This document shows positions 42,492 to 44,644 of a DNA stretch of 64,000 bases, one piece after another. Both the position numbers and the translations under genes were made by a program. This DNA comes from an uncultured Latescibacterota bacterium. Lineage in GTDB: Bacteria; Latescibacterota; UBA2968. The notes below the pieces were generated by a model. The model did no database searches. It was not told the origin of the DNA and saw only the letters and a program-made list of their open reading frames with translations. Where the stretch lies: the NCBI GenBank assembly GCA_951812755.1, contig OX638329.1, positions 1,907,339 through 1,971,338 of the forward strand. The letters are read 5' to 3'. Position 1 is the first letter of the stretch; every line of letters starts with the position of its first letter.

Positions 42492-43988
<1,497 letters not shown>

Positions 43989-44048
43989 CTATATTTAAAG
44001 TCGAGAAAGTTAATGAGGATTATTTTCCCTCTTTGGGTCGAATACAAA

Positions 44049-44080
44049 AATCCCCTTGACGCAGACACATCAAGGGGATT
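44049..44080 (-). terminator. Terminator in the guaB leader
   Basis: AATCCCCTTGA and TCAAGGGGATT (11 bases, perfect) enclose a ten-base loop and are followed by TTTTTG on the minus strand. It starts directly at the stop codon of the small ORF and lies about 70 bases before guaB. Confidence 0.85.
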
Positions 44081-44181
44081 CAGGCGACAGGCACAGTTAC
44101 GCACTCCGCTCTGAGGCCTGGCGGAGGTGTAAGCCGCCGTTTTTTCCGGCAGAAATAATTAGTGTAAAACCTCTGGTGCAT
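44080..44181 (-). CDS. 33-residue ORF between a strong promoter and a terminator
   Basis: An ATG preceded by GGAG seven bases upstream opens a 33-codon frame: an aromatic N-terminus (R-F-Y-T-N-Y-F), a basic patch C-R-K-K-R-R, then L-T-P-P-P-G-L-R and a hydrophobic end. Its 3' half also folds into hairpins (GCCG/CGGC and CTCCGC/GCGGAG), and the terminator begins at its stop codon. It may be a leader peptide of guaB, an independent small protein, or the segment may be a structured RNA with a fortuitous frame. I recognise no family. The promoter and terminator are seen directly; translation is inferred. Confidence 0.5.
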   Translation of the reverse strand: MHQRFYTNYFCRKKRRLTPPPGLRAECVTVPVA

Positions 44182-44216
44182 GATAGTTCTCCAAATCGCG
44201 ACGATTAGATTTGCCA

Positions 44217-44245
44217 AATATACCGCTTCTCTTTTGTTCTGTCAA
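44217..44245 (-). promoter_or_regulatory. Consensus sigma-70 promoter of the guaB leader RNA
   Basis: TTGACA, a 17-base spacer and TATATT on the minus strand. The RNA would start near 44210, about 30 bases before the small ORF, and its first bases can fold (AAATC/GATTT) next to the ribosome site. Confidence 0.75.
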
Positions 44246-44539
44246 TATGTGTGAAATAGAATTTTGTTTACAAAAGTCTCTGGAAAAGGGGTTGACATTG
44301 GTCTTTATGGCTTTTATTTTTTATTTTTATTAACTCAAACTTCTAATGTTGCTGTTGATTGATTAGGCATCTTAAATTTTTAAGACCGGGATAATTAACA
44401 CTCCTCATAACATATTGTTGCAGAGTTGGATATACCGGGAACCCTACTGGTTTGTATTTCGTTTAATTTGAAGCAGATTTTGGCTTGACAGGGTTTTTTT
44501 CATTCATTAGATTCTTCAGCCCTGATACCTGTTATCACA

Positions 44540-44568: not shown

Positions 44569-44644
44569 TAAAGGGAAGCGGCCTGTCTAAACCGTGTGTC
44601 GTTTTCTGTGAATTTTCGTCCACAATAATATGGAGATTAAAACC

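Follow-up and report, generated by a model that had tools for sequence, protein, structure and literature searches.

The leader of guaB

The stretch analysed here (the window) comprises 64,000 nucleotides from an uncultured Latescibacterota bacterium, the genome of which is one 6.53-Mb contig. Its minus strand carries guaB, whose product matched Pfam IMPDH (4.7e-163) and two CBS domains. Ahead of guaB on the same strand lie, in order, a promoter, a GGAG sequence, a 33-codon ORF and a terminator. The features are as follows.

44217..44245, minus strand: guaB promoter, TTGACA-17-TATATT, 11/12 consensus matches
44190..44193, minus strand: ribosome binding site GGAG of the leader ORF (TTTGGAGAA), read from the sequence and kept in 11/11 members of the genus
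44080..44181, minus strand: leader ORF of 33 codons, MHQRFYTNYFCRKKRRLTPPPGLRAECVTVPVA and stop, from the sequence and comparison of congeners
44096..44131, minus strand: possible RNA hairpin in the ORF (TTACACCTCCGC...GCGGAG-T-GYGTAA), a weak candidate for a polymerase pause hairpin
44046..44083, minus strand: premature intrinsic terminator (putative attenuator), -23.1 kcal/mol, z -7.87
42495..43976, minus strand: guaB, IMP dehydrogenase, the presumed regulated gene, ATG at 43976, from the Pfam search

A sequence-only reading of this DNA had described a promoter, a ribosome site, a short ORF and a strong terminator on the guaB strand, and these were confirmed with their coordinates. It had put guaB about 70 bases further on, which was right in order, the measured distance from the end of the stem to the guaB ATG being 75 nt. 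The promoter hexamers TTGACA (44245-44240) and TATATT (44222-44217) are spaced by 17 nt, GGAG precedes the ORF start codon at 44181 by ~8 nt, and 2 nt separate the end of the ORF stop codon from the CCCC arm of the terminator. From the promoter and the terminator, a terminated transcript of ~165 nt is predicted. The neighbour upstream of the leader, a TPR gene at 44630 on the plus strand, points away from it, indicating that the terminator does not belong to an upstream gene on the same strand.

A divergent promoter-like sequence, TTGACA-17-TATTTT (44292-44320, plus strand, 10/12), faces this TPR gene. The TTGAC core of this sequence, GTCAA when read on the guaB strand, was retained by those congeners that were aligned over the stretch.

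Distribution of the leader among relatives

A promoter, a short ORF and a terminator were found ahead of guaB in 21/21 genomes of two Latescibacterota families (f1 and f2), including 10/10 congeners and seven further genera, an arrangement beyond chance. Twenty of these genomes were read in detail, and the 21st (G014) showed the same leader anatomy. Conservation in relatives, to which the sequence-only reading had tied its proposal, was seen for the terminator, which was kept throughout both families. Peptide searches recovered the leader ORF ahead of guaB in each of the 10 congeners, with E values from 8e-17 to 3e-7.

When 64 genomes of the phylum were searched with the exact hairpin pattern, it occurred once in each of the 15 f1 genomes and also in genera g7 and g8, and it was absent from 43/43 genomes outside f1 and f2. 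In g8, it occurred twice, on two contigs of one assembly that each carried guaB; wherever the exact pattern was found, its location was at guaB. The four genomes of genus g6 have TTTCC or TTTCT after the stem and fall outside the exact pattern, and the hairpin was present in them by leader reading. Other members of the phylum, read at orthologous guaB genes with upstream DNA, had no such cassette. One genome of family f3 (L060) has a look-alike hairpin, CTCCTTG...CAAGGAG, without a T-run. In a crude hairpin scan of 63 more distant guaB loci, no similar upstream hairpin was found, and the few matches differed in sequence. Within the genome of the window, the terminator sequence was unique even when 3 mismatches were allowed, which argues against a generic element, and neither DNA nor protein searches gave significant copies of the leader elsewhere.

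Two further observations were made upstream of guaB. In three of the four g6 genomes (L055, L056, and L057), about 180-200 extra bases separate the terminator from guaB (253-267 nt vs. about 70), with the promoter, ORF and terminator intact. In family f6 (L151 and L152), a tRNA-gene-like sequence lies upstream of guaB with no leader cassette; in L151, it stands directly before guaB.

Promoter and terminator

Near-identical promoter hexamers with 17-nt spacing occurred in 20/20 leaders measured, with 10-11 of 12 matches each. The gap between the terminator and guaB, scored in 20 leaders, contained no consensus promoter, and its best site reached 7-8/12; in part of the window's genus, this was a weak TTGTAT-AATAAT-like site (8/12). 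Since the gap has no consensus promoter, transcription from the strong promoter must pass the terminator.

No shuffled sequence folded as well as the terminator hairpin of the window. Its core, CCCCTTGA...TCAAGGGG followed by a T-run, is near-invariant across 7 genera (the window copy, within 44083-44046, is GAATCCCCTTGATGTGTCTGCGTCAAGGGGATTTTT), and the consensus of 20 leaders is CCCCTTGR...TCARGGGG with a T-rich stretch after it. All folded leaders gave a terminator, with energies of -15 to -27 kcal/mol. In 13 sequences, the CCCCTT/AAGGGG core was nearly constant, and the pair flanking it was AU, UA, CG or GC depending on the lineage, four cells having changed on both sides in a compensatory manner. 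A near-invariant core together with a compensatory flanking pair indicates that the hairpin is selected and that its sequence is constrained too.

After the T-run, the sequence TGTATYC (TGTATCC; 44040-44046, minus strand, in the window) was unusually conserved from genus to genus, including g6, where the T-run was degraded (TTTCCTGTATCC).

The leader ORF and its probable translation

In all congeners, the ORF had 30-34 codons and its stop lay 1-6 nt ahead of the stem. Indels within the ORF of this genus were whole codons, whereas distances outside it varied by other steps. Among the 20 leaders of f1 and f2, the ORF had 27-40 codons, began 20-46 nt past the predicted transcription start (20/20) and ended with its stop at -8 to +16 nt relative to the stem (20/20; 1 nt in G014). 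The genus kept the Arg/Lys and PPP codons, apart from one PPP that had become LPP, and Pro pairs and Arg clusters recurred in several other genera.

Shuffled leaders were used to judge the ORF in seven genera, the eighth (g5) being read only. When a strong ribosome site was required, a fitting ORF arose in 0.5-5% of shuffles per leader; such an ORF was present in four of the seven genera (that of the window, g4, g7, and g6), and the leaders of g8, g2, and g3 were without a strong ribosome site. When this requirement was dropped, a fitting ORF was frequent by chance (10-36% of shuffles). Weighing the evidence for and against, we consider translation of the leader ORF probable.

Selection at the amino acid level was weakly supported by the sequence comparisons. 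The pN/pS ratio was 0.49 in the ORF frame vs. 0.44 in a shifted frame, and a column-shuffle test, made on an alignment anchored by the peptide, gave p 0.005 in frame and 0.007 in another frame. A gap-free alignment of the g1, g4, g5, and g7 peptides was possible, with R, P, and C at a constant spacing; those of g2, g3, g6, and g8 had diverged past recognition, with the terminator persisting. No protein family was matched by the leader peptide, and the weak peptide matches seen in family f4 and in other places, at E 0.009 or higher, were taken as chance. The ORF core of the genus was conserved at synonymous sites as well, a hint of constraint at the RNA level.

The 3′ half of the ORF does contain the hairpins that the sequence-only reading had noted, but they are modest. 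The whole ORF folded with a z of -2.1 relative to shuffles, and the 12-bp bulged hairpin alone with a z of -0.3. In the latter, 98.5% of cells were paired in 11 congeners, the window copy having one A-C mismatch; as no compensatory change was found among these 11, it was rejected as a conserved structure.

An A-run, CGR-AAA-AAA-CGG (44130-44150, minus strand, in the window), with a GC-rich hairpin after it, has the look of a site for -1 frameshifting or slippage. A programmed -1 frameshift into guaB was considered and rejected: in the window, the -1 frame continues past the terminator as far as the guaB start, but inspection by eye showed early stops in L042 and L043, so this frame is not conserved.

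A translation-coupled attenuator as the favoured reading

The conserved order of promoter, terminator and guaB, the one terminator copy that is always at guaB, and the lack of a consensus promoter after it support the interpretation of the element as a guaB transcription attenuator that acts by an intrinsic terminator. Attenuation was among the options named in the sequence-only reading; of its addition that this would serve guanine nucleotide synthesis, only the identity of the target gene, guaB, is borne out.

We consider it fairly probable that this attenuator is cis-acting and translation-coupled, of the pyrBI/pyrE type. RNA polymerase would start at the strong promoter and copy the short leader ORF and then the intrinsic terminator, with the leader stop codon at the base of, or inside, the 5′ arm. 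A ribosome following closely behind the polymerase would, at the end of the ORF, cover the CCCCTTGA arm, so that no hairpin forms and transcription reads through into guaB. If the ribosome were absent, late or stalled upstream, for example at the Arg/Lys or Pro-Pro-Pro codons, the hairpin would form and transcription would terminate. The anatomy, its conservation, its exclusive tie to guaB and the lack of another consensus promoter are what is shown; translation of the ORF, the direction of the effect and masking by the ribosome are what we infer. The hairpin might instead be the target of a protein or a ligand.

As to the signal, guanine nucleotides or translation through the PPP and Arg-Lys stretch are offered as guesses. 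Our first guess is that coupling is favoured when low GTP slows the polymerase, in the GC-rich leader and along the GGGG in the 3′ arm; the second is general translation capacity. Developed in full, the former would give an attenuator that senses GTP without an aptamer: with GTP scarce and the polymerase slow in the GC-rich leader and GGGG arm, the ribosome would draw level and cover the terminator. Such a system would be the purine analogue of pyrBI, which senses UTP, and would have evolved in an uncultured phylum. We regard this specific version as unlikely.

Alternative explanations

Among the readings without ribosome masking, a trp-type attenuator, in which a ribosome stalled at Arg or Pro codons would expose an antiterminator that replaces the terminator, draws on the codons just mentioned, kept in the genus and echoed by the Pro pairs and Arg clusters of other genera, and on the precedent of mgtP in Salmonella, which contains three consecutive Pro codons and shows a proline response (PMC3641672). 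It is difficult to reconcile with the pairing found. In the window's genus, no conserved upstream segment pairs strongly enough with the 5′ arm, the best upstream duplex reaching -8 to -9 vs. about -23 kcal/mol for the terminator, and at most simulated stall positions the arm is little paired upstream (0.1-0.3 in this genome). Besides, no biosynthetic logic joins Arg or Pro to guaB, which makes XMP and no amino acid, and we hold this reading to be improbable. An RNA that senses a ligand or protein without translation, namely a new riboswitch or the site of an RNA-binding protein, seems rather unlikely as well. The synonymous-site conservation of the ORF core and the unusual conservation of the hairpin core and of TGTATCC after the T-run would fit it, but in a riboswitch one would expect the aptamer to be conserved above all else, and no structure or sequence core outside the terminator is shared across genera, nor does the in-ORF hairpin show compensatory change. 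As the sequence-only reading had stated, known riboswitches were not recognized: Rfam covariance models gave no match at the gathering score, and loosening the threshold brought up no more than NsiR1 (E 0.12) and a microRNA family (E 1). The lack of a conserved antiterminator in the genus and of shared structure outside the terminator argues against both trp-type and riboswitch-type control and leaves ribosome masking at the end of the ORF.

The two other options raised in the sequence-only reading, a small protein and a small RNA, fared less well. The ORF might be a small protein gene that has a terminator to itself and simply happens to precede guaB, which would then be transcribed by leakage or from its own weak promoter. 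The open frame with its in-frame indels, the ribosome site, the partly similar peptides of four genera with their R, P, and C spacing, and the 8/12 site in part of the genus are in line with this. Yet the terminator occurs only at guaB, the gap has no consensus promoter, and the peptide, under weak amino-acid-level selection and outside any protein family, diverges in g2, g3, g6, and g8 while the terminator stays, making such a gene very improbable. Least probable is a terminated leader that acts in trans as a small RNA. A short transcript of ~165 nt is indeed expected from the promoter and terminator, and the NsiR1-like score, weak and below gathering, points the same way, but across genera nothing conserved outside the terminator suggests a trans role, and the tie to guaB is strict. 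In the pyrG-type attenuator of B. subtilis, the transcript begins with a G run that can stutter; no G run stood at the start, which is predicted only, in the window or the other leaders read, and this type was rejected.

Comparison with known systems

The kind of control proposed is known, and its guaB instance appears to be new: in the openly licensed papers searched, neither a guaB leader peptide or guaB attenuator nor attenuation in Latescibacterota was described. If the translation-coupled reading is true, purine supply would be regulated by ribosome-polymerase coupling, and the element would offer a compact, transplantable means of asking what coupling can sense.

Premature terminators also attenuate purine genes under the purine, PRPP, and (p)ppGpp riboswitches known from guanine genes. 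Unlike these, the guaB leader has no Rfam match and no conserved aptamer region. With the mgtCBR leader of Salmonella (mgtM/mgtP), it shares the design of an attenuator having a short ORF with three consecutive Pro codons; there, loss of the start codon cuts downstream transcription sevenfold (PMC3641672). The action of mgtP depends on alternative stem-loops; in the guaB leader, conserved pairing of that kind was looked for in the genus and not found.

Like pyrBI of E. coli, guaB is a nucleotide-synthesis gene preceded by a strong promoter, a leader ORF (translated in pyrL) and an intrinsic terminator. The pyrL frame runs into the pyrBI terminator. In contrast, the guaB leader ORF ends at the stem, the target is no pyrimidine operon, and no U-rich pause tract of the UTP type was noticed. 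A ribosome advancing on pyrL prevents the terminator, and in E. coli without EF-P, polyproline stalling at codons placed before pyrL restores pyrBI termination (PMC5021804). EF-P is encoded in the window's genome, so the PPP codons could tune coupling here.

In rph-pyrE of E. coli, the reading frame ends about 10 nt before the terminator stem. There, a full gene (rph) lies upstream of a pyrimidine gene, whereas here an ORF of 27-40 codons precedes a purine gene. The rph-pyrE control has been attributed to translation-transcription coupling (Bonekamp 1984, as cited in PMC8058203), and the guaB leaders come close to it in where the frame ends, at -8 to +16 nt from the stem.
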